DNA from: Hyaloperonospora brassicae
Taxonomy: Eukaryota > Oomycota > Peronosporomycetes > Peronosporales > Peronosporaceae
DNA length: 64,000 bases
Direction of reading: 5' to 3'
Assembly (NCBI GenBank): GCA_947650285.1
Contig: CANTFL010000146.1
Span: forward strand, 186,001 to 250,000
Positions within the stretch are counted from its first letter, which is position 1, and every line of letters starts with the position of its first letter. A program made the translations under genes and the position numbers. Positions 30,546 through 59,605 of the stretch are shown piece after piece. The notes under the pieces were generated by a model that made no database searches, was not told the DNA's origin, and saw only the letters and a program-made list of their open reading frames with translations.

Positions 30546-31481
30546 TCACTTTCGTGAAACGATCGTGAACGCAGTAATTGGAATCAAAGTCGGAGAGAGG
30601 TCGGCGACTACATCGCCACTTGTCGTTGTCGCAGCAGAACCTTCCTCCGAGTATGTGTTTTTGCGACTGTCTTCTTCCATCAGGTTCATCAGCGTCGCTT
30701 CCATCTGCTCCTTCGTCAGCCTCTCCAAGAACTTGACACCAGAGGGATTGCTCATAGTTGCTTGCGCGAATGTTTTCGAGTCGTCAAACACAACCGTGTG
30801 TGTCGTGCAGTACGACTTGACCTGTCGGAACCCCGCAGCTTGTAGCTCCTTCAGCACCCTCTCTCGATCCGATGCTACCACCAACGACGGATGCGGCAGT
30901 GGCTCTCCATCACCTCCTGCAGCATTGAACATATCGGTGAGCTTATCAAACCATATCAAATGCGAACTCTTGTCAGCCCACGCCGTGACAATCAAAAGGC
31001 CGTCGTCTTTCAACACGCGACGAGCTGCTTTCCACGCTGGGGTGCGATCGATGATGATACTGAGCCCGAAATTCGAGCCGACGGCATCGACCGACGCAGT
31101 CGGAATGCTGTCCAACGTTGTTCCGTCTGCTTGCAACGGGGTGATCGCGGCACGGAACGGACGCAACGCGGGATCGTCTTCCAGCGCATTCGTCATTTCC
31201 TGCAACATCATGTCCGACCAATCCGACGCGGTAATGCGTATGTCCGTCTTCTTATGGAGATATCGACGTGCGAATTCGAAGCTAAGGACTCCAGGGCCAC
31301 AGCCAACGTCCAGGAAGTGGAAAGGAACACCCGAGTTTGCATTGTGATCGAGTTTCTCGAGAATGTCGCGGTGCGCAATTTGCAGTGCGTCAGCGGCCCA
31401 GTACTGCGTCATCGATCCAAAGACCGAGCTATACGTCGTTGCATGTGCAGACCACTTGGCATCCGCATTGTCGTTCTCCAT
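30546..31481 (-). CDS. SAM-dependent class I methyltransferase, copy A
   Basis: A single exon of 311 residues with an ATG start (MENDNADAKW). Motif I of the Rossmann-like methyltransferase fold is clear at about residues 57-70 (FLDVGCGPGVLSFE), with an acidic end of strand 2 at TASDWSD near residue 88. The usual motif IV/post-I region (SVDAVGSNFGLSII) is near 130-143, and VLKDDGLLIVTAWAD near 156-170 is the strand 4/5 region. This is the methyltransferase-11/UbiE-like layout. The substrate cannot be deduced. No signal peptide or membrane span is seen, so a cytosolic enzyme is likely. The paralogue at 58299-59234 differs at about 31 positions, clustered outside the SAM motifs, which suggests both were under selection after duplication. 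Confidence 0.8.
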   Translation of the reverse strand: MENDNADAKWSAHATTYSSVFGSMTQYWAADALQIAHRDILEKLDHNANSGVPFHFLDVGCGPGVLSFEFARRYLHKKTDIRITASDWSDMMLQEMTNALEDDPALRPFRAAITPLQADGTTLDSIPTASVDAVGSNFGLSIIIDRTPAWKAARRVLKDDGLLIVTAWADKSSHLIWFDKLTDMFNAAGGDGEPLPHPSLVVASDRERVLKELQAAGFRQVKSYCTTHTVVFDDSKTFAQATMSNPSGVKFLERLTKEQMEATLMNLMEEDSRKNTYSEEGSAATTTSGDVVADLSPTLIPITAFTIVSRK

Positions 31482-32934: not shown

Positions 32935-33309
32935 TGTTAGAAGATATCGTTTCTGACAAGTCGCGAGGGTCAAGGGCAATACCCCGTGACACGGTAAGTT
33001 ACAATCGTACCTGATTGGCTAACAAGTTTGACATCTTGACAGATGGGACGAGGCGACGATGTCGCCACGTCGGACCACCAGGATGTTGCGACATATGGGA
33101 CGAGGCGACGAGATTACCATGTCGTCTTGTCGATGTCGTAACAGGTGGGACGGAGCGGGATAGACGTGCACTATAGACGGTATAGTTGCAGTCCGTTTCG
33201 CATGCATGTGTAGGTATTAACGAACGGGGGAGGTTAATGCTTAAATATATTCACTTTTACTTCTACATCTTCTGGAACAAGTGCATCAACGAACACTCAT
33301 TCTTCAACA
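32935..33309 (+). repeat. Copia 5' LTR
   Basis: 375 bases, TG...CA termini with short inverted ends. It contains a direct repeat of ATGGGACGAGGCGACGA near 33042 and 33096. It matches the LTR at 37805-38179 except for one C/T near the 3' end. Confidence 0.95.
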
Positions 33310-33321
33310 GGTTATGAGCCC
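33310..33321 (+). other. Copia primer-binding site
   Basis: GGTTATGAGCCC directly after the 5' LTR. It resembles the complement of the anticodon region of initiator tRNA-Met used by many copia elements. The Gag start codon at 33314 lies inside it. Confidence 0.7.
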
Positions 33322-36300
33322 AAAGAATCGTGTTGCCGGCGCAGCTCAAGGAGCCACACCCGCTGCGGTGGTCGATGGTCGAGAAACGACCGAGGACCAC
33401 CAACTAGAAGAAAAGTCGGCAGTGCCCGCGGCGGCACTGGACAAGATGCTCGCCATGCTTGGCGACTTGTCGGAACGGATGGGCAGGATGGAATCCTCCC
33501 AACGCGAACAAGTTGGAGGCCAACGCATGAAATCTGCGGAGTCGAGCGTCTTTGGTTCGGTTATCGGATCAGGGGGCGGTATAACACTTCAGGCTTTGGA
33601 GCGTACCCCACCCCCTAAACGTTCACCGAATGTCTCGCCGGCCACCTACTTCGGTTCCCGACGACCGGCTCTGGCCGGGGAACACATGGTTGACGCGCCG
33701 GCCCAGGAAAATGTCAACCGTGGAATGGCTCGGGGTCTCGAGCCTGGAATTCAGGGACATGCCATGCCTGCGGGAGTATACCCGGGTATGCAAGTACCAG
33801 GTCCGGTGCAACACCAGCCCGGACAGGTACACCAAGGTGTACTGGATGGACGCCAAAGGAAGCTGGCTTTGCAACCTTTCGATGGAAAGGAGCTCTACCA
33901 TGGCCTTGGGAGTGGTTTCATTGAATGGGGCAAGGAATTTGTCCGGCAGGTTGCGTTCTAGGAACGCGCCTGCGGTTTTGGATGGCCTGAAGATATCAAG
34001 GTGGATGTCCTCGGCCAACATCTCGCTGGTACGGCGCAGAAGTATTACCGGCGGCAGGTGGAAACTTGGTGGTCTGAGAGCCAGACCTTGGAGCATGCAT
34101 TGCAAAGGTTACTCCAGACCTTCAACACCAAGATAACACCTGCCCAGAGCATGAAGCTGTTTACTGCTGCCAAGTCACCCCAGCGTAGCTGGACCGAACA
34201 CTTCCTGTACCTGACCGCTGTGAGCGACGCATGTGGAGGTGCGGACAACCTCGTACTGGACAACATCGTGCATTATGCCGATCCAGCCATGCGGACGACT
34301 ATGTTGTCCCGCCTGAATTTGAATAGGATTGACTATCTTCGTCAATCTGAAGAGCTCGCGCAATTCGCACAGTCAACGGAACTTGAAGTTCGCGTAAAGC
34401 ACTTCGGTCGGGATGTTGTCAACATTGTTGAGCCAAACAACCAACCCAAGAGGATCGAACGGACCAAGAAACAACATGGTCCACAGCGATCCAAGCAGTG
34501 TTATCTGTGCGGCAGCACCGGGCATCTCAAGATGAACTGCCCAAAGGGTACCAAGAAGAAGCAAGATGCAGATTTCGTCTTGGCTCTCCCAGTACATCGG
34601 ACGATTTCGCCAAGTCACTGGGTGCTGGACAGCGGCTCAGGTCGTCACCTGATTAACGATTTGAGCTTGCTGGAAGATGCGGTGGACTGCAACACCAAAT
34701 GCTTCACCGCTGCGTCGGACAGTGAACCACTTCAGATCACCAAGCAAGGAAGTGTGATGATCCGGGTCAAAGCACTTGGATTAACTAAGACAATACGTCT
34801 TCTCGATGTTCAATACGCATCAAACTTGGAGTGCAACATCATCTCGTTTGGGAAACTCGAGTCGAAGGGATGCATCCTTGAGTATCGAGAAGGGAGGCGT
34901 GTCATGGTTTCGCAATCCGGTGGATTACCTATCATGGATGTCGATCGGATCAATAGTGTACTGGTCGTTGAAGTTTTCAATGGAGCTACGACCAATGGTT
35001 CCCATGGTTTCGGATCACCAAGAGAAGCTATCATGACGGTCGTCGACGACATCAAGAGTAGCACAAGGAACGACGTTCAACATGGAACCCTGTTTTATTT
35101 TCATCACTGTCTAGGGCACTTGTGCTACGACACCATCATAAAGATGGCTCGGGATCCCGCCTCTGGTATCAAACTGACTGATACCAAGCGCGTCAAGTGC
35201 TTAGCCTGTGCACAAGGCAAGCAGACAAAGAACCGACAATCGCGGAAGGACAGTGGGTTGAATTCACCCATTGACGTGATCGGAGGCGTGGTCTGTTCAG
35301 ACCTGAAAGGTCCTATGACCCCCCGTGATCGACTCGGCAATCGATACCTGATCAATTTCATTGATCACAGGTCGAATTACTGCCGGGTGTTCCTAGTGAA
35401 GACCAAAGATGCTGCTGCGATGCATTTCAAGAATTTTTTGGTGGTTTTCGAACGCCAATTTAATTGCCGTATACACGTTTTACGTACAGACGGTGGAGGC
35501 GAGTACAAGCCTCTGGATGTTTTTTGCAAGAAGGTCGGTGTCTCTCGCCCAGTGAGCGAGCGTGACAACCAGGCCAGCAATGGCAAAGCCGAGCGCATGC
35601 ATCGCACTATCATGAATATGGTGCGAAGCATGGTGTTTGCAAGTGGGTTACCCTTGACGTTTTGGGGTGATGCTGCAGAATATGCAGCATACATCTTAAA
35701 TCGAAGTCCCACCAAGGCTAACGAAGGTAGCATCTCACCCATCGAGATGCTAACCAAGAAGACACCCGTCTTAAGTGACATTGTGGTTTTCGGGTCCTCA
35801 TGCACTGTGCATCGAACGACCTCGAACAAGTCATTGGGTCCCCGTGGCAAACAGGGGATCATCATCGGGAAGAGCGATGAGATGAAAGGCTATCGGGTCT
35901 TCATACCAATGGATCATGTGGTGGTAGTAGCTCAACACGTGAAAAACGTCGAAACCTTGGATAACATCCAAAGGCCAAACATGACCAAAACGTTACATGG
36001 TACCGAAGGTCAGGAGGAGCTCGGTGACCAAGGTGGCACGAACAAATCAAGTGCAAGGCCATCAGAATGGACTCGTGATCCACACATGACACGATCACGC
36101 CGAAATGACGAAGATACATCAAGCGAAGTCACTATCTCAGGTGAGGGTGTCGACATCGTCAACGCTGTTCGGGACCCGAAAAACTATGGCGAGGCTGTGC
36201 GAAGCGACAGCAAGGATAAGTGGGCTGTGGCCATCAAGGATGAACTCGACGCACTGGAGGAGAACGGTGTGTGGGCGGTTGTCGTTCCACCTGACAACGC

Positions 36301-37810
36301 CCACATACTCCACAATAAATGGGTTTTCAAGACAAAGACCGATGCTGACGGGAATGTCGAGAGATACAAGGCCAGACTCGTTGCATGTGGAAACGAGCAA
36401 TTGTTTGGAGTCGACTACACCTTGACATTTGCCGCGGTTATGGAACTCGGGACAGTCAAGGTGATCCTGGTCCTCTCACGCAGATGGAATGTGCCTGCTC
36501 GTCACGGAGATGTGCCAAACGCATATGTCAAGGCCGATTAGGAAAAGGACCTCGACATCTACATGAAGATACCAAGTGGTATGCAAGTTAACGAAGACAC
36601 CTTGGCCTATCATGGTGTGGACGCGAATAAACAGCTCGCACTGTTGCTCAAGAAGTCTTTGTATGGCTTGAAACAAGCTGGAAGATTGTGGAGCAAACTA
36701 CTGCACTCCAAGCTGACCGAGTTAAACTTCAAACAATGCACGACGGACATGTGCCTCTATGTCAACCGAACCGGTACGGATGTAACGGTTGTCGGTGTTT
36801 ACGTCGACGACCTACTGGTGACTGGAACTTCGAACGCTGTCGTAGGACAATTTCTCAAGGACATGGCATCTCTCGAGATCAAGGAACTCGGCATTGTGAA
36901 CAAGTTCCTCGGACTGAGGGTCAAGCTGAATGAAAATGAAGGCTACGTGTTGGACCAAGAGGTTACCATCGACTCACTGCTAAAGGAACATGGACTGGCT
37001 ACTGCTAACGGTGTTCGATCTCCAATCGGAAAAGAATGCAACGACGACGATGAGTCGAACTCAGAGTCATTGAAGCCGACCGCCAAGGATGGAGATGCAA
37101 GTATCAAGGCCTTTCAGTCACTCGTCGGAAGTTTACTGTGGATTGCGCGTTGTACTCGACCGGACATTTGTTTTGCGGTACACCGGGCAACCCGGCAGAC
37201 CCACAAGCCGACGGTCAAGGATTGGAGAACGGCGAAACGAGTCGCGAGGTATCTTTAGGAGACCAAGACGTTGAAGCTATGCATCAACAGTTCACAAGGC
37301 GTGGACGTCCCAATCAAGATTGAGAGCTGGAGCGACGCGGACTTCGCTGCGGACAAGTCGGACCGCAAGTCGGTCACTGGATACGTCCTTACTATGGATG
37401 GCGCTGTCGTTTCATGGGCGTGCAAGAAGCAGACCGGGGTGTCGCTAAGCACAATGGAAGCTGAGTTCATTGCAGCGTCTCACGCTGGCCGCGAACTACT
37501 GGGTTTGAAGGATCTGTTTGGCGAGTTAAGCATAAAAATCGTCAAACCAATGCCGATGTGGATGGATAACCAAGCAGCCATCAACTTGTTGAAGACCGAG
37601 AAGAGTTCGTCAAGTGCCAAGCATGTGGATATTCGTTTCAAGTTTATCTGCCACTACGCACAAGCAAAAGAGATTGAACCACGTTTCATCAAGTCAGAGG
37701 AGATGATTGCTGATCTCCTGACTAAGGCACTACCGGCACCAAGGATGAAGGATCTGCGCGCGATGTTCAAGTTGAAGACCCCTCCGGATACGATTGAGGA
37801 GGAGTGTTAG
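33314..37810 (+). pseudogene. Copia Gag-Pol polyprotein frame interrupted by three TAG codons
   Basis: One reading frame of 1,499 codons runs from the ATG at 33314 to a TAG at 37808 inside the 3' LTR. Internal stops are TAG at 33959, 36539 and 37256, each followed by GAA or GAG; no frameshift is needed. Domains in order are Gag; a CCHC knuckle ([14 protein letters not shown] near 34499); protease ([11 protein letters not shown] near 34619); integrase with HHCC zinc region and acidic core (near 35104-35600, including [10 protein letters not shown]); RT from about 36200 with YVDDLL at about 36801; and RNase H (SDADFAADKSDRKS near 37333, then STMEAEF). All core motifs look intact. The stops could be recent C-to-T changes of CAG, AAG/GAG losses, or readthrough sites. 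Confidence 0.85.
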
Positions 37811-48903: not shown

Positions 48904-49298
48904 GGTTTTGTCGAGTCCAGCGGAGCAATTGGACTAAATCTCAACGCACAAACGATTTTCTCGTTCAAGTCTGCGCTCTGACTGCATCATGAGTGTGTAG
49001 GGGTCGTAAGAGGTTCGACGACAGTGGCTACAAGCTGACACACGATTGATCCAAGAGCACGAACGTCTAGTTCTTGCGTGCAGGATCCGACACAACTAAG
49101 TGACACTGAACTTTCCGACTTGTCAATGATGATCGTCGGATGTACACGTCAGCACTAGACGTACATCTCGACTTGCGATCATTGTTTACTGGCACCGAAA
49201 TGGCTCCGGCCATCGAGTAGCGGCGGTAAGGGTTCTTTTGAACACTTACCTTCTGAACAATTACCGCTACAAATGGATTGATTTTGTTCTACGTATTC
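48904..49298 (+). repeat. Partial copy of the A/B duplication, left flank of the gypsy element
   Basis: This 395-base stretch matches 57290-57680 on the other side of the gypsy element, from GGTTTTGTCGA to CTACGTATTC. Most of it, from 48966, also matches the start of copy A at 29895. So the same segment flanks the element on both sides in direct orientation. Confidence 0.85.
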
Positions 49299-49689
49299 TG
49301 TACCGGGGCAGCCCGTTACATGGAATTGTCACTTTAACTAAAGTGACAATAAAGAATATGAAGTTAGACATTCTTTAAACAATATCACCAAAGTGGTGAT
49401 ATTGAAGGGTCGACCAAAGCGTCTGTTAATCGGTTGATATCTTGATGATATCAACCCACCAATCGCCGCAAGACGCGCGCAATGAGTGGTGACGAGACGT
49501 CACCATACACTCAGTTATATTAGCATATTTAAGTTAAGTCTAACAGAGAGACAGTAGTTAAAAGACTTAATTATATTAATATAATAGTTCATCTTTTACC
49601 TTATCTACGCTTCCTCGCTTGCCTTGTGTACGTCTGTCGGGGCACCGATACCCTTGCGTTAAGTTCACGCAAGGGTGTGCCCCGTTACA
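49299..49689 (+). repeat. Gypsy 5' LTR
   Basis: 391 bases. Strong stem-loops with perfect arms at 49380-49404 (11-base arms, loop AAG), 49432-49456 (GGTTGATATC arms) and 49650-49676 (ACCCTTGCGT arms). Confidence 0.95.
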
Positions 49690-49830
49690 CCTGGTAGCAC
49701 TTTGTAGTCCTCCCAGCGATTATTACCACCTGTTTCAGCATAAACACGTTGGATGAGGATCAGACCTTTCACGCCATGCGAGACGGATTACATCATTTTT
49801 ATAGAGATCGAATAGAGTGCGGTAGAACGC

Positions 49831-50790
49831 ATGAGTTCTACCGTCGGTGAACCCGCCATTAGCGCCATGTTGGAGTCTCTAGACAGAGACCAACAACATG
49901 CTGCTATAACCAAGTTCATTCAACATGAACTTGTCGTCAAAAGAAAGAAAATAGCCTTGCTTCACAAGCAAGGCTCTCAACAGGCCGAGCAGTTGAGAGA
50001 ACTCGGTGCTCAACAGACGAAGCTGTTTAGACAGCAGCAAATTCATGCTGCTGTGGGCGGGACGGCACATGCGCGTCGTCCCGAGGTCATAAGAGTTGAC
50101 ATCTCCAAGTACAGTGGAGTCCCGGAAGACTCCCTGTTACTATGGTTTGTCGAACTCGACAGAGCCCTAAGGGCTCGTCGCGTCGAAGATGAGCAAATGA
50201 AACTCACATTTGCTCAGACCCACTTGGCCGGGCGTGCCAAAACTTGGTCCCTGGGACTCGAGAGTAGCGACCTAAACCTGTTGAGGTCGCTAGATGACTT
50301 CAAGTCCCGGCTCAGCAAACGTTTGAGCCGCCACGGGCTGAGTTCAGGGCTCGTTCAGAGCTCCTGAAACTCAAGCAGGGTAAGCGTGATGTGCACCCTT
50401 ACGCACAATAAATACGACTCCTCGCGAGTAGTATAACTGCCAACCCAGTCCATGAACACACGTTGATTACGGTGTTCATGCAATGGATCGCAGAGGGTCC
50501 CGTCAGGAGCCACCTGTTCCGCCTTGAGCTGAATAAGCTGGAAGATGCGATATCGGCCGCGGAACAGGAAGACTTTATCATGATACAGGCTCATGCTAGC
50601 TCAAACTCTTACCGTCCACCGAGACGACAAGAGATCGGAGGTCCGGATCCAATGGACCTCTGCTATGTTGAGAGCAAGAGACCTCGCTCTTCAAACAACA
50701 AGCGATTGCAGAGGTGCAATTGCTGTCAGAAGTGAGGGCACTACGCATACGAGTGTAGTGCTCCACGCCCAGTACCAAACAGTAGTGAGC
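49831..50790 (+). pseudogene. Gypsy Gag with a broken frame
   Basis: The ATG at 49831 opens 178 codons with a Gag capsid-like region (ISKYSGVPEDSLLLWFVELD, AQTHLAGRAKTWSLGL). The frame is lost at about 50330, a TAA follows near 50408, and the Gag reading resumes at 50463-50735 (FRLELNKLEDAISAAEQEDF). The zinc knuckle C-x2-C-x4-H-x4-C spans about 50716-50755, but a TGA at 50733 replaces a variable residue in it. At least three lesions make it non-functional. Confidence 0.75.
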
Positions 50791-50989
50791 AAATGGACGA
50801 CCATTTGCTAGAAAGGGCAATGGGCGTGGGTTCAGCGCTGTTGCGAAGCCGCAACAGCGAGACGGACCATCAAAAAATGGTCGGGGTCAGTAGGGGCGGA
50901 GCGCCCTACTGATCTAGCAACCTCAAGAGAATCTGCAAATCTTTTGACGAAAGTTGCTCCAGATACACAATCATTGTGTGTCTCTGCAC

Positions 50990-51755
50990 CTAGTGATGAC
51001 TTTTCGCTCATCACCTTGAAGTTGCAAGTGACAGAAGATTTGCCTCTCCGTGCTCTCGTTGACTGTGGGGCATCGAGCAACTTTGTTCGTGCCAGTCACT
51101 AGAGGGTCGTAGGCTCAAGTTCGTTGAGCGCGACATTCCCCTCACAAGAATGACGGTGCGCCTTGCAACAGGCGCATCGATAACCGTTGAGAAACGTGTA
51201 GTAGGAATCCACTACACATTAGAGGGCGAACAGTACGATGATGACTTCATCGTACTAGATCCGGATGACAAATTTGATGTCACCCTGGGATTACCTTGGC
51301 TCAGAAAGTACGAGCCAAGAGTGAGCTGGCAGCATCGATCCGTGAAGATGCCTGCCGCTTGTTCAGCAGATGGCCATCTGATGAACATCTTGGAGCGTCC
51401 ACAAGCATGTGGATGTTCTGCGAGTGAGTGCGATGGCCTCACTTGCGGTACGGTCGTTAGCACGACTGCACAAGATCACAATGTAGTTGATCACTACACT
51501 GTGGAGCAAGCTCCCGGCGGCTGTACAGAAGTACAGGCTGCGCCGAAGGTCCACCACTCGAATAAGTCGAGTGGACCGGGACATGGATGCATGCCTAGCG
51601 GGCAGCATCTTATACAAAAAAAACATGTTGCCTTCAAAAGGCAGCATGGAAATCCTAGGTCGACTGGAGAGTCGACCGTAGAGGATCGGTTCCTGACTGT
51701 GGTTGCACAGCCACAGTCGGAAGACGTCGAGCAAAATAAGTCCCCACGTACTTGA
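50990..51755 (+). pseudogene. Gypsy aspartic protease region
   Basis: The active-site segment reads ALVDCGASSNFV near 51050-51085, that is DCG where DTG or DSG is usual. A stop follows within about ten codons. A second frame, 51150-51755, carries the rest of the fold (VRLATGASI, FIVLDPDDKFDVTLGLPWL) and a long Cys/His- and Gln-rich linker. Confidence 0.65.
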
Positions 51756-51930
51756 GGAAGGAATTCCTCAAGAGTCGCTTGCTGAGGGATCAGGCCCTCA
51801 GCAACCTGTGGAAGCAAGTTCCCAGGAAGAAACCGAGACGTTGAACGTCTTGGTTATTGACGGATTAAGCGTAGGCGCTTATACGCGTGATCTGACTGTG
51901 CCTCTGAAGTTGACTTCGGAGGTAACTTAA

Positions 51931-53580
51931 TTGCCAACGCTAGAACCAAAACGGTTCTTGCGCGATCTGCGTAGTGGCAAGATCAAGCAGATCTTCGTAC
52001 TCGTCACAGAGGATGAGTATGTGACCGATATTCGGTCGGCAACAGTATTTGCTGAGAACGAACGGGTTCTCAGCAGCTCATCGATGGACGAAAGTGTCCT
52101 CGATGAGAAGACTCGGATTGAGCGATACACGTCTCAATCCTGGGAGTCACTTCAGGCAAATCCTTTGTATAAGGATTTGCTCGGATTCAAGGATGTGTTC
52201 CCTGAATCCGTACCTTGCGAGTTGCCTAAAGATAAACAAACTCCACCCGAGATCGAGCTCAGACCGGGCTCGAATTTCTGTGTCACGAAGCAGTGGCCAC
52301 TGCCTCGTGAACAAGTACTAGCGACAGACAAGTTCTTTGCCGATCGCTTAGCAGTGGGCCATGTGAGAAAATCAACATTTCCTCACAGCTCTCCGACCTT
52401 CTGTGTGCGAAAGGCCACAGAAGGATGGCGGATAGTGCACGCATTCAACAAGTTGAATGCTGCAACGGTACCGGCTCAACCGCCGATACCGAGGAAGGAC
52501 GTAATCATAGATGGTATGTCAAAGAGTACCATCTTTTCGTCCATGGATCTGATGGATGGATTCTATCAGATCCTCATGCGTGAACGGGACATTCCGTAAA
52601 CAGCAGTGAGTACTCCCAGCGGGGTGATATGGGAGTGGCTAGTTACGCCACAGGGGCTGAGCAATGCCCCTGCAACATTCAACATAGGTGTTTCAAATCT
52701 GTTGAGACCGGTGCGAGACTTCGTACCGAGTTACTTCGACGATGTGTTCGTCCATATCCGGGCTATGGACGGAAAGACGGACGTTGAAGTTCACAGAACT
52801 CACGTTCGTCAGGTTCTTCAACTTATGCGCAAGCATAAGTTGTACGCCAACCTCAAGAAGTGTATATTCGCGGCTAGCGAAATACCACTTCTTGGGTGCA
52901 TCGTCGGTAAACACGGCGTACGCCCTGATCCCGAAAAGATCAAGGCGATCACCGACTGGACAGTGAAAGTCGATGTCAAGGGACTTCGAAAGTTCCTTGG
53001 TCAAGCGGCGTACTTGCACAAGTACTCGCGCAACTACGCCGAGATGACGGTACATATTTCTTGGTTACTCAATAAAAATGTCAAATGGTCATGGAACGCT
53101 GAGTGCCAGCGTTCCTTTGAAGGTATCAAGCAAAGCTTGATGCAATCGCCGATCTTGGCGATTGCAGATCAGGACAGACCATTTCATGTGGTCTGTGACG
53201 CCAGCGATTTCGCAATCGGCTGTGCGTTAATGCAATTCGATGCGGATGGCGCGGGGCGCGTCATCTGTTATCAGTCGCGTCAGCTGCAAGCAGCTGAGCG
53301 CAATTACCCAGTGCATGACAAGGAACTCCTTGCCAAAAAATATGCACTGGCTAATTTCCGCGTCTACCTCCTTGAAGATAGACCGTTTGTTGTCTATACG
53401 GACCATGCGTCACTACGCACGGCCGTAACAGCCCACACCTCTCGCAACGAATGGCGAGGTGGCTGTCTTTCTTCGTGAAGAACAACTTCTCCGTGGAACA
53501 CAAACCAGGACGACTTAACGTCGTCGCTGATGCGCTATCACGTCGGCCCGATTTTGAGCCGACAACACGCGCCAACATTT
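51931..53580 (+). pseudogene. Gypsy reverse transcriptase and RNase H
   Basis: RT motifs in order: FCVRKATEGWRIVHAFNKLN (near 52400-52455), MDLMDGFYQI (near 52543), a TAA at 52597 in frame, then VTPQGLSNAPATFN (near 52645) and YFDDVFV (near 52734; the YxDD box is intact). The RT thumb follows (LGCIVGKHGVRPDPEKI). RNase H has VVCDASDFAIGCAL near 53190 and YTDHASLRTA near 53395. A frameshift near 53455 moves the last part (VADALSRRP) to another frame. With one stop and one frameshift, the enzyme is inactive unless recoded. Confidence 0.85.
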
Positions 53581-53582
53581 AG

Positions 53583-54506
53583 GCCTTGCCCACTCTAGCG
53601 GCACTGTCAGTCAGTGTGCGGTCATCGCCTTTACTCGATGACGTGCGGAAGGCATACGCAGGAGATACGAAACTCCCTTGTTTGATGGGTCACATTGCGA
53701 ACCCATTCCGGAGATCCTTGTCGGATTTGCCGGCTCTACACCGTTCCTCTTTGGATTGGTACACGACTCGCAATGGCCTGCTGTACTATACAGCAGTTGC
53801 CGACGACACGCCTCGTTTCGTCGTACCCGCTCATCATGATTTGCGCTTACGCATCATGTATGAGTGTCACGATGCCCCAACAGGCGGCCATCGTGGTAGA
53901 GAAAAGACTTACCTCACGGTAAGTCGTGACTTTTACTGGCCACGCCAGTATCAGTTTGTACGCAAGTACATACGTGCTTGCGAGGTTTGTCAACGGGTGA
54001 AGCCTAGTCCTTCATCCCGTGCGCCATTGTGGCCTCTTCCTGTTCCGACAGAGTGCTGGCAGTCCGTTTCCATGGATTTCGTCTTCGGGTTTCCCGAAGA
54101 CGCTCACAAGAATAATGGTATTCTTGTGTTTGTTGACCGATTCAGCAAGATGGTCCATCTTGCTGCTGTCCCTGATTCAATCAAGGCTCAAGGTTGTGCT
54201 CGTGTCTTTCTAGACACGGTCTTTAGACTCCATGGGTTACCCCGTGAACTCGTATCCGACCGTGACCCTCGGTTCACGGCGGCATTTTGGCAAACCGTGT
54301 TCCGTTCTCTTGGAACACGATTGCAGATGTCTACTTCTGACCATCCGGAACAGATGGTTGGACAGAACGTGCGAACCGTGTCCTCGAAGAGATCCTTCGA
54401 GGATATGTCCACTCGTTTTCGAGCTGGAGCGAATTCCTACCCCTGGTGGAATTCGCCGTCAATAATTCGGTGCATGCTTCCACACAGCACATACCATTTT
54501 AAGTGA
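53583..54506 (+). pseudogene. Gypsy integrase core
   Basis: About 306 codons. The HHCC zinc-binding domain reads H-x-APTGGHRGREKT...CEVCQRVKP (about 53868-54005). The catalytic core has MDFVFGFPE (first Asp near 54073) and LVSDRDPRFTAAFW (second Asp near 54258). The frame then shifts near 54345, before the Glu, at the position where DHPETDGQ is expected. The C-terminal domain resumes at 54769. Confidence 0.8.
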
Positions 54507-54768
54507 ATGGCTAACGCCATCTACGTGTGCCCGCCCTTTTAGAGTGTGACTCTTAGATAAGGGGGGAGGGACTCGCTCGAGCAAAAACCGTTTTGGCCCT
54601 TGCTCATCACGTGACGACGCAAACGTCGTCACGTATGATGCCGATGTCGATCAAGTCGACATCGATGAAGAAGATCATCTCAATAATAGCGGCGACGCTA
54701 TTATTGATTCGGATGATGATGACGATGCTGGTATATTCAGCATCGCCAACGATTATGTCAGCGAGGAA

Positions 54769-55728
54769 GTGGACAACCTCGCTGAAGAAGAGAATAACCT
54801 CTTAGCAGTGCGCACGAAGCGCACCGAAAGACAAAACAAAGAGTCAGCAGAGAACTTCCTGCTGACTCGAGAAGCGGTAGTCCGTTTTGTACAGGACTCC
54901 ATCGCAAATGCGGTGGACCGTCAGAAACGGAACGCAGACAAGAATGAGAGAGCAAATGTTCTTTCATTTAAAGTTAATGACCTAGTACTACTGTCCTCGG
55001 TAAACTTACCTGAATATACAGTCACTAGTGTCGGCAGTAGTAAACTACTGCCGAAGTACATTGGGCCATTTCGAGTGTTGCATCGCAAGGGCAATGCATA
55101 CACGATCGAATTGCCACGTAAGATGCGCACGCATCCTACGTTTTACGTGGGGAGGATCAGGCCGTACTGTCAGTACGAGCCTTCTTCTTCCGATAAAGAT
55201 AGCCCCCACGTTCAAGAACATCCATCAAGGTCTCGCGTTTGCGCTCCAGACGATCCGTCTGGTCGCGCAGATATGATACCTCGGAACTCAAACGAGATAT
55301 CTCCCCGCGAGCTGTCGCCAGATCGCCGAATACGGAGCGGACATCCCGCTCGACCCGAAGCTGCGCTGTGGCATAATCGGCGCGATCCCTCGCCCGATCA
55401 GCCTCGTGATCCTTGCGGTTCTTCCGCACGGTATCAGTCAAAGCGTAGCGCCGGTCGCACTCGTGCTTCAAGTCATCGTGCAACTCATCGATTGCGCGAT
55501 CCATCTCGTAAGGGTCGAGATGGTGAATCGAATCATCTGGAGGAGGTCTTTCCTCCTCCACCACATCCTTTGGTGGATGCTCACGGTGGTCATCGCTGTC
55601 TAGTGGAGCGTATCTTGAATCACCGTGACAATTCAGGATCAAGGACGAGCTACCTCGTCCAGTGGCGGGGGTATCCACCCTCTTGGAACAGCTGGGAGCC
55701 CAACTCTCAGCTGTTGATAAATGTTTAA
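54769..55728 (+). pseudogene. Gypsy integrase C-terminal domain, linker and chromodomain
   Basis: 319 open codons. Residues about 65-135 are the integrase C-terminal beta domain (FKVNDLVLLSS, KYIGPFRVLHRKGNAYTIELP, HPTFYVGRIRPY). A 140-residue linker rich in Ser, Arg, Pro and Asp follows. The last 45 residues are a chromodomain (LVERILNHRD, SYLVQWRGYPPSWNSWEP) with the aromatic residues expected of a methyl-lysine cage. Chromodomains guide chromovirus insertion towards marked heterochromatin. The linker's low complexity and its overlap with the antisense coiled-coil frame raise the possibility that it is not selected as protein on this strand. The frame is open here but has no intact upstream integrase. 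Confidence 0.75.
55157..55678 (-). CDS. Antisense coiled-coil ORF overlapping the chromodomain linker
   Basis: 173 codons from ATG (55678) to TGA (55157), antisense within the gypsy element. The N-terminal third is acidic and proline-rich. From about residue 57 the protein is a long charged helix with heptad spacing (RAIDELHDDL, then RVERDVRSVFGDLATARGEI, then SRLSSEVSYLRDQTDRLERK) and a basic tail ending KKKARTDSTA. Codon usage and the regular pattern look more like real protein than the plus-strand linker does. The family is not recognised; a helical, dimerising accessory or Gag-like protein is a guess. It lies just downstream, in the antisense direction, of the Cys-cluster frame at 56584-55760 and may have been one gene with it. 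Confidence 0.5.
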   Translation of the reverse strand: MDTPATGRGSSSLILNCHGDSRYAPLDSDDHREHPPKDVVEEERPPPDDSIHHLDPYEMDRAIDELHDDLKHECDRRYALTDTVRKNRKDHEADRARDRADYATAQLRVERDVRSVFGDLATARGEISRLSSEVSYLRDQTDRLERKRETLMDVLERGGYLYRKKKARTDSTA

Positions 55729-55759
55729 GGTCTCGTCCGCCACTATGACGAGACTCATC

Positions 55760-56584
55760 CTATGAGTCCTCGGGACCATCGGTAAACACGCACTTTTGGC
55801 GCATGTAGACGGATTGCAAGTTTGTAATCGCGTCACGCATCTCAGCCGAGATGTGTGCCTTTCCCCAGGGCAAATTTAGGGAATACACATCCCTATGTGC
55901 ACGCTGCAAGTTGTCACCACAACTCGCACAAGGGTCTCCCCATGTTGGGCAAGGAATGTCTGCCTCACTCGACAAACAGTGCAACCGGTACCTTGCACTG
56001 GTTGGCGTTCGCTTTTCAAACTTGAGGCGTACCGCCTCAAGTTTCTTAAGTCACCCTTCTCGTCCAAAATTCTTTACGTTTTGGACGAACGCGTTCCACG
56101 CCGCCAAAAGCGATGCTTTGTCACGCTTTTGGTTGCTGTTGTACCATCGATGTCTAAGAAAGACATCAAGATAGAAGTCTTCTTTAGCGTGGAAGTTCTT
56201 CGCGCTGGAACTCAAGCCGTGAAGCTCAGTCGCATCGAATAAGGGTATTAGATGGTGTTGGCTTGTCTCGTGAGACAAGCTATTGAGGATCTGTTCGGGC
56301 AAACGCCACGGCTTCAGCTCATCACGCTTCACAGTGGTACCGATGTTGGTACCACGGCTCCCAGATTGACGACGGCTCACGCCATCGTCATCACGCTCGT
56401 GCGAAGAGGCACGAGCCGGCGGTGGTAAGGAGTAATACTCCTCACCACCCTGATCACTCTCATCATCACTGCCGAACAGACTGTGATGTAAATCACGAGT
56501 CCGTTCTTTCGGCAGTGCCCTTGGCGAATACTGAGGCGTAGCCGGTGAGCGAGACGCCTCTGGAACATTACCCGAGTCAGACAC
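55760..56584 (-). pseudogene. Antisense acidic and Cys-cluster gene, frameshifted
   Basis: The ATG at 56584 opens 177 codons: a Ser/Pro/acidic N-terminus (LFGSDDESDQGGEEYYSLPP), then a folded-looking part (DELKPWRLPEQILNSL, HAKEDFYLDVFLRHRWYN, LLAAWNAFVQNVKNFG). A TGA ends it at 56051. Two shifted frames continue without a gap: one has CTVCR near 55975, and the next has CPTWGDPCASCGDNLQRAHRD and LPWGKAHISAEMRDAI, ending in a TAG at 55760. The Cys pattern could bind zinc. Two frameshifts make it a pseudogene as written. Antisense extra ORFs between pol and 3' LTR are known in some plant gypsy lineages; I do not know this family. Confidence 0.5.
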
Positions 56585-56895
56585 GTCTGACTCGCCAGAG
56601 TAGATGACCTCTACGTCGAGGTCATCATGAGCACGCGGTGAAGTGCCGCGTGCACCTGCAGCACCTGTTGCTGCAGGCGAAGAAGGAGCAGCAGCGACGA
56701 ATCGTCTGCCGCAGAGGCTGGCACAGCACCGGGCTGTGCGGGTCTTGAGTCACCTCACACAGACATGTTAACTATGCGAGGTCAAGCGGGAAGTGAATGG
56801 AACGGACCCAACAAGTGCTCCCTGTCCCAATGGTGGCCAACGGGTGGCCGCCATATTTTCGATAGTCACACGGTGACTATCAGTTAAGGGGGTGA

Positions 56896-57289
56896 TGTAA
56901 CGGGGCAGCCCGTTACATGGAAATTGTCAATTTAAAGAAACAATGACAATAAAGAATATTAAGTTGAATTATCTTTGAACAATATCACCACTTTGGTGAT
57001 ATTGAAGGGTCGACCAAAGAGTCTGTTCATTGGTTGATATCTTGATGATATCAACCCACCAATCGCCGCAAGACGCGCGCAATGAGTGGTGACGAGACGT
57101 CACCATACACTCAGTTATATTAGCATATTTAAGTTAAGTCTAACAGAGAGACAGTAGTTAAAAGACTTAATTATATTAATATAACAATTCTGCTTTTACC
57201 TTATCTACGCTTCCTCGCTTGCCTTGTGTACGTCTGTCGGGGCACTGATACCCTTGCGTTAAGTTCACGCAAGGGTGTACCCCGTTACA
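56896..57289 (+). repeat. Gypsy 3' LTR
   Basis: 394 bases, TGTAACGGGG to CCCCGTTACA. It differs from the 5' LTR at roughly 28 positions. One stem-loop (56980-57004) is the exact reverse complement of its counterpart at 49380-49404: the arms are identical and the central AAG is replaced by CTT. Confidence 0.95.
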
Positions 57290-59605
57290 GGTTTTGTCGA
57301 TTCCAAGGGAGCAATTGGACTAAATCGCGACGCACAAACGATGTTCTCGTTCAAGTCTGCGCTCTGACTGCATCACGAGTGTGTAGGGGTCGTAAACGGT
57401 TCGACGACAGTGACTACAAGCTGACACACGATTGATGCAAGAGCACGAACGTCTAGTTCTTGCGCGCAGAATCCGACACAACTACTTACACTGAACTTGC
57501 CGACTTGTCAATGATGATCGTCGGATGTACACGTCAGCACTAGACGTACATCTCGACTTGCGATCATTGTTTACTGGCACCGAAATGGCTCCGGCCAGCG
57601 AGTAGCGGCGGTAAGGGTTCTTCTGAACACTTACCTTCTGAACAATTCCGCTACAAATGGATTGTTTTTGTCCTACGTATTCGATCACCGGTCCTTCTGC
57701 TACGTCAAAGTGGAACTGCGGGTATTGCAACGGGCGTTGGCATGGAGCGAAGATGCCTATAAATCACCACACATCGAAACCGTGGAAAACGCTTGTTGTA
57801 GCACCGAGTTGTATACGTCTTAATGAAAACAGTGAAGCACGCTGTCGTTCAGGGTAACTTTCGTTCCAACAGTCTGCATGGTGCTTTTGCCACGAACGCG
57901 TTCTATGTGATGAAGTGGCGCTTCTTTTGTACTCAACGCTAGTGAAGTGTGTCATACCGACATGAAGCGCCCCGGCCAGAACACGCGCCACGATGTTTTC
58001 GACCAAGTACTTCATCCCAGACGTGCAGTATGCTGTCAGTACTGTTCTTCTTGTGGTCTTCTCCTTCGAGCGACTACGATTACGCTACGTTGTTTTCCGT
58101 ATGATATGAGACGTTGTATCTAATTCGTATACTGCAATAGCTCGTACAGGATGGATCAGAAGGGAAGTCAGGAACGTTTATTCTCTCTCTTTTGCCAGCT
58201 CTGTCAAGCTGGGACTATGAAAGATGCGCGTGGCAATCCTGACACAATGACGGATCCAATCGTCATGCTGCCTACTACCCGCACCTCCTTCGGCCTCTTC
58301 ACTTTCGTGCGACGATCGTGAACGCCGTAATTGGAATCAAGGTCGGAGAGAGGTCAGCGACTACATCGCCACTTGTCGTTGTCGCAGCAGAACCTTCCTC
58401 CGAGTATGTGTTTTTGCGACTGTCTTCTTCCATCAGATTCATCAGCGTCGCTTCCATCTGCTCCTTCGTCAGCCTCTCCAAGAACTTGGCACCAAAGGGA
58501 TTGTCCATATTTGCCTGCGCCAATGTTTTCAAGTCGTCAAACACAACCGTGTGTGTCGTGCAGTACGACTTGACCTGTCGGAACCCCGCAGCTTGTAGCT
58601 CCTTCAGCACCCTCTCTCGATCCGATGCTGCCACCAACGACGGATAGTTCAGTGGCTCTCCATCACTTTCTGAAGCATTGCACATATCCGTAACCCTATC
58701 AAACCATATCAAGTTCGAACTCTTGTCAGCCCACGCCGTGACAATGAAAAGGCCGTCGTCTTTCAACACGCGACGAGCTGCTGTCCACGCTGGGGTGCGA
58801 TCGATGATGATACTGAGCCCGAAATTCGAGCCGACGGCATCGACCGACGCAGTCGGAATGCTTTCCAGCTTCGTCCCGTCTGCTTGCAACGGGGTGATCG
58901 CGGCACGGAACGGACGTAACGCGGGGTCGTCTTCCAGCGCATTCGTCACTTGCTGCAACATTACGTCCGACCAATCCGACGCGGTAATGCGTATGTCCGT
59001 CTTCGTATGGAGATATCGACGTGCGAATTCGAAGCTAAGGACTCCAGGGCCACAGCCAACGTCCAGGAAGTGGAAAGGAACACCCGACTTTGCATTGTGA
59101 TCGAGTTTCTCGAGAATGTCACGGTGCGCAATTCGCAGTGCGTCGGCGGCCCAGTACTGAGTCATCGGACTAAAGACCGAGCTATAGGTCGTTGCATGGG
59201 CGGACCACTTGGCATCCGTATAATCGTTCTCCATTTACGAAAAGATTGGAGGATTTTCGAGTAAAGGTATGGGAGAAAAAGGTGCGGAATTTGAGGTGTG
59301 CGTGGGTCAAAATCAGGATCGAGGGTGTTGTTTTGGAGCAGGCAAATGCCGAAGTGAGTGGATTGAATGTTTACCTTTACCGAAGCTTGTTCGACTTGAT
59401 CTGCCTTGAGCTATTCATGCGACTTCTCAAACACCAAAAACGATTTCGTGACTTTTCGAACACTTGAGATGATTTCGTGACTTTTCAAATCCCAAAGATG
59501 ATTCAGTGGAAAGGAGAAACCGTTCTACGTCATGTAAGAATATTATCCATAACCGCCGTGACATGAGCAACGGTACTTCAACACAGGAGCAGGTCCATGG
59601 GTCAC
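57290..59605. repeat. Segmental duplication, copy B
   Basis: 57290-57680 repeats the left flank of the gypsy element (48904-49298). From 57355 it follows copy A (29895 on) through the methyltransferase gene to about 59600, with about 280 extra bases at 57723-58000 that copy A lacks. Confidence 0.8.
58299..59234 (-). CDS. SAM-dependent class I methyltransferase, copy B
   Basis: 311 residues, collinear without gaps with copy A (30546-31481). The SAM-binding glycine motif DVGCGPG, the DWSD acidic motif and the SVDAVGSNFG segment are unchanged. Roughly 31 substitutions lie mainly at the N-terminus, around residues 174-200 (FDRVTDMCNASESDGEPLNY compared with FDKLTDMFNAAGGDGEPLPH) and around 236-250. 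The cluster near 180-200 lies in the usual cap or substrate-side region, so the two enzymes may differ in substrate. No stop or frameshift is present. The surrounding non-coding bases are also duplicated, so both probably share promoter sequence. Confidence 0.8.
   Translation of the reverse strand: MENDYTDAKWSAHATTYSSVFSPMTQYWAADALRIAHRDILEKLDHNAKSGVPFHFLDVGCGPGVLSFEFARRYLHTKTDIRITASDWSDVMLQQVTNALEDDPALRPFRAAITPLQADGTKLESIPTASVDAVGSNFGLSIIIDRTPAWTAARRVLKDDGLFIVTAWADKSSNLIWFDRVTDMCNASESDGEPLNYPSLVAASDRERVLKELQAAGFRQVKSYCTTHTVVFDDLKTLAQANMDNPFGAKFLERLTKEQMEATLMNLMEEDSRKNTYSEEGSAATTTSGDVVADLSPTLIPITAFTIVARK

Follow-up and report, generated by a model that had tools for sequence, protein, structure and literature searches.

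The 64,000-nucleotide window analysed here, from the oomycete Hyaloperonospora brassicae (contig CANTFL010000146.1, positions 186,001 to 250,000), contains at 49299..57289 a whole Ty3/gypsy retrotransposon that is tiled with perfect short hairpins from one long terminal repeat (LTR) to the other. Its Pfam domains occur in the order RVT_1, RT_RNaseH, Integrase_H2C2, rve, SH3_Tf2-1 and Chromo, as in Ty3/gypsy chromodomain elements, and the copy is an old, decayed and frame-broken member of such a family, a placement made in a tree of the families of this genome. The 5' and 3' LTRs share 367 identical positions over 394 columns, with three gaps. The features are listed below, with hairpins given without strand.

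49299..57289, plus strand: whole Ty3/gypsy element, an old frame-broken copy tiled with hairpins (91 inverted repeats with arms of at least 7, Pfam domains, LTRs)
49299..49689, plus strand: 5' LTR, TG...CA, hairpin-rich (alignment to the 3' LTR, hairpins)
49831..50367, plus strand: Gag-like open reading frame (ORF) piece (weak Ty3_capsid match, E=0.0086, below cut-off)
51150..51755, plus strand: protease piece (RVP_2, above cut-off)
51931..53478, plus strand: reverse transcriptase (RT) and RNase H, two open pieces split by a stop (ORFs; RVT_1, RT_RNaseH, RT_RNaseH_2)
53586..54506, plus strand: integrase piece (Integrase_H2C2, rve)
54769..55728, plus strand: integrase C-terminus with SH3_Tf2-1 and chromodomain (Pfam)
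55157..55678, minus strand: antisense ORF remnant overlapping the chromodomain end of pol (ORF list)
56051..56584, minus strand: antisense ORF remnant (ORF list)
56896..57289, plus strand: 3' LTR (alignment to the 5' LTR)
49325..49350: hairpin, arm 11, loop 4 (LTR)
49380..49404: hairpin, arm 11, loop 3 (5' LTR), its loop inverted relative to the 3' LTR
51232..51256: hairpin, arm 10, loop 5
52156..52180: hairpin, arm 10, loop 5, its arms identical across the nine copies shown
54080..54102: hairpin, arm 10, loop 3, its loop inverted in copy L039
54105..54128: hairpin, arm 10, loop 4
54143..54165: hairpin, arm 10, loop 3
54609..54634: hairpin, arm 11, loop 4
54680..54707: hairpin, arm 12, loop 4, its subfamily versions differing by several paired changes
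54841..54868: hairpin, arm 10, loop 8
56018..56044: hairpin, arm 12, loop 3 (antisense-gene region)
56980..57004: hairpin, arm 11, loop 3 (3' LTR)

Hairpin excess in the window element

An inverted-repeat counter accepting perfect arms and loops of 3–12 was run over the whole window. It found 91 repeats with arms of at least 7 inside the element (11.4 per kb) against 49 in the other 56 kb (0.87 per kb); the corresponding counts are 71 and 13 for arms of at least 8, and 26 and 1 for arms of at least 10. Across 100 dinucleotide shuffles of the element the mean was 4.1 (maximum 10) for arms of at least 7 and 1.1 (maximum 4) for arms of at least 8. An earlier note on this DNA, made from its letters, had described the element as full of perfect short hairpins, which these counts confirm, and its estimate of about one 8-base arm per 8 kb by chance agrees with the shuffles. 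All six coding stretches tested exceeded the maximum of 100 synonymous-codon shuffles, and two host methyltransferase ORFs had no hairpin with an arm of at least 7 and a loop of 3–8, as the note had said of host genes; the density is thus above both codon-preserving shuffles and the neighbouring host genes tested. Of the 27 hairpins that the note listed, 26 are perfect repeats, 51901-51922 pairing at 9 of 11 positions with an interrupted outer arm; some of its coordinates were one or two bases short, and the spacing that it gave as often every 25–40 bases is on average about one hairpin per 88 bases.

The excess is restricted to short loops, with counts of arms of at least 8 dropping sharply past a loop of about 13, and per-kb counts show that it ends at the borders of the element. 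The LTRs, the gag part, pol and the 3' regions all bear hairpins. Since the LTRs are included and synonymous shuffles abolish the hairpins, the earlier suggestion that the whole element is subject to either structural constraint or some mutational process is supported. Of the two, constraint has the better support, because stems are conserved in the transposing lineage while private changes in old copies are near-even (see below); the stems may nonetheless have a mutational origin.

Hairpin tiling in four related families

A 2.5-kb piece of the element has matches at 40 or more places, counting the one in the window. At the 29 other loci from this search there are 83–90 hairpins per 5.5 kb compared with 57 in the window copy, and young copies of its family (F1) carry about 16 per kb. 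The two LTRs of the young copy C501 show no difference at the 390 positions compared, and GGAGG stands on both sides of this copy as a 5-bp target duplication. Hairpins are again abundant in its LTR, gag-part and 3' regions. Two apparent subfamilies in the per-kb hairpin profiles proved to be merely loci in opposite orientation.

Four related families can be distinguished in this genome, with amino-acid identities between them of 51–60% (70–73% for F2 against F3). The density of arms of at least 7 is 7–17 per kb in F1 (17 loci), 6.6–8 in F2 (4 loci), 4–4.9 in F3 (2 loci) and 0.5–1 in F4 (4 loci), with 0–1.1 in other elements (13 loci). These counts suggested F4 as a hairpin-free relative, a view overturned when arms of 5 were counted. 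Against synonymous shuffles, with loops of 3–14, the F4 loci L045 and L048 hold 89 arm-5 hairpins vs 32.2 and 54 vs 18.3, respectively; for a loop of 3 alone the figures are 40 vs 4.2 and 25 vs 2.2, and for arm 6 with loops of 3–14 they are 11 vs 8.2 and 5 vs 4.8. In all four F4 loci, arm-5 hairpins with loops of 3–8 exceed dinucleotide shuffles with z of 10.5–18.4. Arm-6 hairpins in L045 show some excess by that test (12 vs 3.9), so five is a strong mode rather than an absolute limit; even so, only 14 of 91 stems in L045 and 11 of 80 in L048 (loops 3–6) reach at least 6, below the quarter expected from chance extension (p = 0.02 and 0.01). In F1, 27 stems reach at least 10 but 6 reach at least 11, and in F2 and F3 stems longer than 9 seem to become scarce, although numbers are small. 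In L046 and L049, which represent distant families, hairpins do not exceed synonymous and dinucleotide shuffles.

The hairpin trait is therefore common to four related families of this genome, with a family-specific stem length of up to about 10, about 9 or mostly 5 bp. The stems of F1 are largely in places of their own: among arms of at least 7 in F1–F3, which this comparison covers, F1 shares 2 of 65 with F2 and 2 of 65 with F3, whereas F2 and F3 share 6. Relatives in other oomycetes (Hyaloperonospora arabidopsidis, Peronospora effusa, Phytophthora and Globisporangium) are known as proteins only, and in a viral contig collection 11 pattern matches for relatives yielded none that was confirmed. 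At L078, around 1100-2001, an F1 copy seems to adjoin an F3 element in opposite orientation, the F1 antisense protein being readable on the plus strand as judged by eye.

A long antisense ORF

C501, the one young copy examined, has a long antisense ORF, about 540 amino acids by coordinates, that overlaps the end of pol; if expressed, it would yield sense and antisense transcripts that overlap. Such an ORF is present in the 3' region of each of the four families, with the overlap of pol seen in F1–F3. Antisense ORFs in other loci are as follows.

L074, 1-1287, minus strand
L026, 4663-5502, minus strand
L076, L077 and L078, minus strand

A protein search with 429 residues of the F1 antisense ORF returned 23 proteins, 19 of them from ENA records; comparison of the antisense proteins covers families other than F4. 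Pfam gave a single match to the antisense protein, below cut-off. Among these proteins a weak relative from H. arabidopsidis (P0143, 39% identity across 23% of the query) bears the annotation of an RxLR effector candidate and is possibly a misnamed transposon gene. As a cause of the hairpins the antisense ORF was discarded, since it is present in all four families and so does not track stem length.

How stems and loops change

Thirty young copies were compared using stems defined on the outgroup copy L041, one of six stem sets tried. Shared polymorphism affects 8 of 746 arm positions (1.07%), 19 of 292 loop positions (6.5%) and 70 of 2155 positions elsewhere (3.25%), and at third codon positions the counts are 4/241, 11/91 and 47/667. 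Arms differ from loops with p = 5e-6 for the L041 stems and p < 2e-4 with each of the six sets. Changed sites in the non-coding LTR follow the same order (arms 9/116, rest 31/247, loops 7/26), and protein constraint therefore does not explain the pattern.

Six old or outlying copies were examined with stems defined on the F1 locus L026, a private change being a base seen in no other copy. Private changes are spread nearly evenly (arms 122/5048, 2.42%; loops 46/1672, 2.75%; rest 354/12418, 2.85%), whereas shared changes are not (arms 71/842, 8.4%; loops 56/279, 20.1%; rest 262/2072, 12.6%); the private versus shared comparison of arm and loop gives p = 0.003. Hairpins thus seem to rot after insertion and to be kept before it. 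Taken together, the conservation of stems in young copies and their near-even decay in old ones are best explained by selection in the transposing lineage, and we conclude that the F1 hairpins are probably maintained by selection rather than by biased copying.

Of 64 stems in L026, only 9 lie in the phase in which third codon positions pair with one another, as would be expected of stems accommodated to the codons. This is unlike F4, where L045 has no preferred codon phase (30, 28 and 32 stems; 14, 9 and 18 in L056). Hairpin spacing in L026 resembles random placement (CV 0.67 vs 0.63), the hairpins span 17–30 nt with a mode of 23, and F1 loops peak at 4–5 nt.

The strongest competitor is a copying bias, in which RT would occasionally fold back, copy the nascent strand for a family-specific length and return, with selection on the protein keeping those stems that can be tolerated. 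Template switching has been reported to create and mend hairpins (PMC8794818), and a process of fixed reach accounts more naturally for the sharp stem lengths (arm 5 against 6 in L045, at least 10 against at least 11 in F1) and for the rarity of imperfect stems in F2 and F3, whose loci have 8–19 perfect stems of at least 8 bp and only two one-mismatch stems each, compared with 24 one-mismatch stems in L026. It is for these two reasons that we continue to take it seriously while thinking it the less probable account. It also fits the strict Watson-Crick pairing and strand symmetry of F1, which lacks a G-U preference. Alignments show two-base changes that lengthen a stem, together with inverted loops, a possible signature of template switching, in a pol stem of L039 (54080-54102 in the window) and between the LTRs of the window copy (49380-49404 and 56980-57004); yet a scan for loop inversions matched one stem only (66 of 1701 tests, with 20.1 expected from shuffled loops). 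Adjacent doublets between L026 and L041 number 8 in arms (2.3 expected) and 23 in the rest (20.2 expected), but they are not generally commoner in arms, W, for example, having 7 against 3.1 in arms and 23 against 10.7 in the rest. Some F1 stems are altered on both sides with pairing retained; however, with the L026 stems 49 of 57 changed arm pairs are uncompensated singles and 8 are compensated (36 and 5 with the L041 stems), the reverse of what fast repair would leave. Nor would neutral conversion produce the conservation of arms relative to loops in the non-coding LTR.

Pairing type and strand symmetry

Local folding energy per 150 nt in L026 has a mean z of -6.2 on the sense strand (first 24 windows) and -6.5 on the antisense strand, and the window copy has a mean z of -4.3 (24 windows, every second one); L016 and L021 were left out of strand comparisons. 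Folding energy below that of shuffles all along the sequence is the behaviour of genome-scale ordered RNA structure (GORS). Tolerance of G-U pairs is a further criterion of GORS, and here F1 departs from it, G-U being no commoner than A-C while the antisense strand folds equally well. One-mismatch stems of L026 have GT 8 : AC 7, shared non-paired states in F1 are GU 15 : AC 14 and 10 : 11, and with at least 9 pairs the window copy has GT 7 : AC 10. In the 8-bp stems of L026 there are 47 GU (3.9 expected) and 50 AC (3.2 expected), and F2 has GU 3 : AC 9.

These results make it unlikely that structure is needed only in the sense RNA, where it might help the genomic RNA, as in virus genomes with ordered RNA structure, to be packaged, stabilised or translated. 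Such a function would be consistent with how extremely the sense strand folds locally (z of about -6 in L026), with the conserved stems and with the F1 loop peak, loops of 4–5 nt being favoured in RNA, and under a looser stem definition of at least 7 pairs the window copy does lean towards GT (16 : 11). It predicts a clear surplus of G-U over A-C, however, which neither F1 nor F2 provides, and for that reason it was rejected as the sole cause; overall we regard it as improbable. An excess of A in sense loops, considered as a further sign of a sense-RNA function, failed the stricter count in the pol frame of L026 (115 vs 97, p = 0.24) and held in L044 (48 vs 26, p = 0.014).

Less probable again is that the hairpins act in single-stranded cDNA while the element replicates, where they might limit mispairing, for instance, or protect nascent strands. 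Strand symmetry and strict Watson-Crick pairing would follow, as would the three-base loops that dominate F4 (40 vs 4.2 expected), but F1 loops peak at 4–5 and we know of no pathway that requires hairpins in cDNA. Chance, base composition or codon usage can be dismissed with near certainty, given the dinucleotide and synonymous shuffles and the lack of excess in the two distant families L046 and L049 of the same genome.

A possible shield against silencing

If the hairpins are kept by selection, escape from silencing, with RNA of both strands as the target, may be the benefit. In Phytophthora infestans, LTR elements give rise to small RNAs of 21 and 25/26 nt, and two of its Gypsy elements have small RNAs mapping along them in both orientations (PMC3522703); these small RNAs, hairpin spans of the same size and the likelihood of antisense transcripts led us to favour silencing over other benefits. 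Self-folding 25-mers make up 26% of L026 compared with 6.7% of host DNA, and F4 is also high at 16.5%. Selection during active transposition would keep the family tiled with perfect hairpins, which would hold both the sense and the antisense RNA of the element in a self-folded state; RNA folded in this way would pair poorly with host small RNAs and complementary transcripts, and after insertion selection would end and stems decay at about the ordinary rate. Read as one statement, in which selection during transposition, self-folding of both strands and escape from silencing must all hold, the proposal is tentative and somewhat more apt to fail in one of its parts than to stand entire.

The case is built from DNA sequence, and several observations weigh against this explanation. 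Among shared and private changes the contrast between arms and all non-arm positions is modest with some stem sets (p = 0.03 for L041, 0.02 for L043, 0.046 for L040 and 0.046 for W), is not significant with the L026 (0.21) or L042 (0.12) stems, and gives p = 0.07 in the old copies. In the young copies, arms have fewer private changes than loops as well (22/746 vs 16/292), which selection before insertion alone would not give. F4 arms are not conserved between L045 and L072, the sole divergent copy (44/398 vs 163/1413). A lean towards G-U is seen between L041 and L043 (GU 20 : AC 7) and in the F4 copy L048 (GU 46 vs 31.6 expected, AC 25 vs 23.0 expected). Antisense ORFs occur in all four families despite widely differing stem lengths, and the tiling continues well outside the antisense overlap. 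A silencing model does not obviously predict sharp stem lengths that differ by family, and the near absence of imperfect stems from F2 and F3 fits conversion better. Finally, for viroid RNAs the efficacy of small RNAs was reported to be uncorrelated with target structure (PMC6638287).

A mixed history, in which stems are written by fold-back copying and then kept by selection, is compatible with all of the results. More broadly, a clade of oomycete Ty3 elements may carry a heritable hairpin code, each family having Watson-Crick hairpins throughout, with a stem length of its own (about 5, up to 9 and up to 10 bp). Such a code could be read from either strand, F1 would have its long stems mostly elsewhere than F2 and F3, and the code would be either written by RT or selected as silencing armour for both strands; we rate the prospects of this description as evenly balanced. 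If true, it would amount to a further layer of information, spanning the whole element in addition to the protein code. This single genome has families with stems of 10, 9 and 5 bp as well as hairpin-free ones, which offers a natural experiment on whether the folding of nucleic acids shields mobile elements from silencing, or whether RT can write hairpins into its own genome. The element also shows how much synonymous sites can yield to a second code with the proteins still in frame.

Relation to known systems

The element shares with Ty3/gypsy chromoviruses the order of protease, RT, RNase H and integrase, the chromodomain, the LTRs and, in C501, the 5-bp target duplication, and differs from them in the hairpin tiling and the long antisense ORF. 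The single-stranded RNA phages (MS2 and relatives) also have genomes dense in hairpins, but they replicate as RNA without a DNA stage and encode unrelated proteins. Folding of both strands may keep the phage strands apart, so avoiding double-stranded RNA. Structure and the control of translation have been described for these phages (PMC6071253).

Three other systems come closest: GORS in behaviour, the palindromes of nematomorph mitochondria in anatomy, and template-switch hairpins in possible origin. In GORS the folding excess is likewise genome-wide, over coding and non-coding sequence, and it has been suggested to shield RNA from host recognition (PMC9784701). It is, however, a property of RNA virus genomes, whereas here we deal with an integrated LTR retrotransposon whose hairpins are perfect, strictly local and Watson-Crick, equal in sense and antisense, without G-U preference in F1 and of family-specific stem length. 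The nematomorph palindromes are perfect inverted repeats within mitochondrial coding sequence, dynamic in gain and loss and biased against one pairing phase, but they reach 284 bp, lie in organelle genes and have been attributed, as a suggestion, to repeat conversion (PMC6649704). The stems described here are 5–12 bp long, dozens per gene, run from LTR to LTR, are conserved in young copies and are lost near-evenly in old ones. Template-switch hairpins have perfect stems, loop inversions and compensatory changes, and are reported as scattered events in RNA genes (PMC8794818), while those of the element are element-wide and in F1 change mostly by uncompensated singles. As far as compared, none of the three combines strand symmetry, element-wide tiling and family-specific stem length. 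A literature search found no published description of such a hairpin-tiled retrotransposon, most subscription journals lying outside its reach.

Neighbouring features of the window

The window copy lies exactly between direct repeats at 48904-49298 (395 bp) and 57290-57682 (393 bp) and has no 5-bp target duplication. The two repeats share 373 identical positions over 395 columns, a divergence about that of the LTRs, and the arrangement looks as if either a target of 395 bp had been duplicated or the element had been inserted through break repair. Similar genes for a 311-amino-acid UbiE-like methyltransferase, at 30546-31481 and at 58299-59234 (minus strand), flank the retrotransposon-rich stretch. 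Within it, a copia-like element at 33000-37300 shows a mild excess of short hairpins: compared with synonymous shuffles its ORF at 34001-36541 holds 22 arm-5 hairpins vs 12.4 (maximum 21) and 4 with arms of at least 8 vs 0.2 (maximum 2), so elements other than those of the gypsy clade may have the trait in weaker form.

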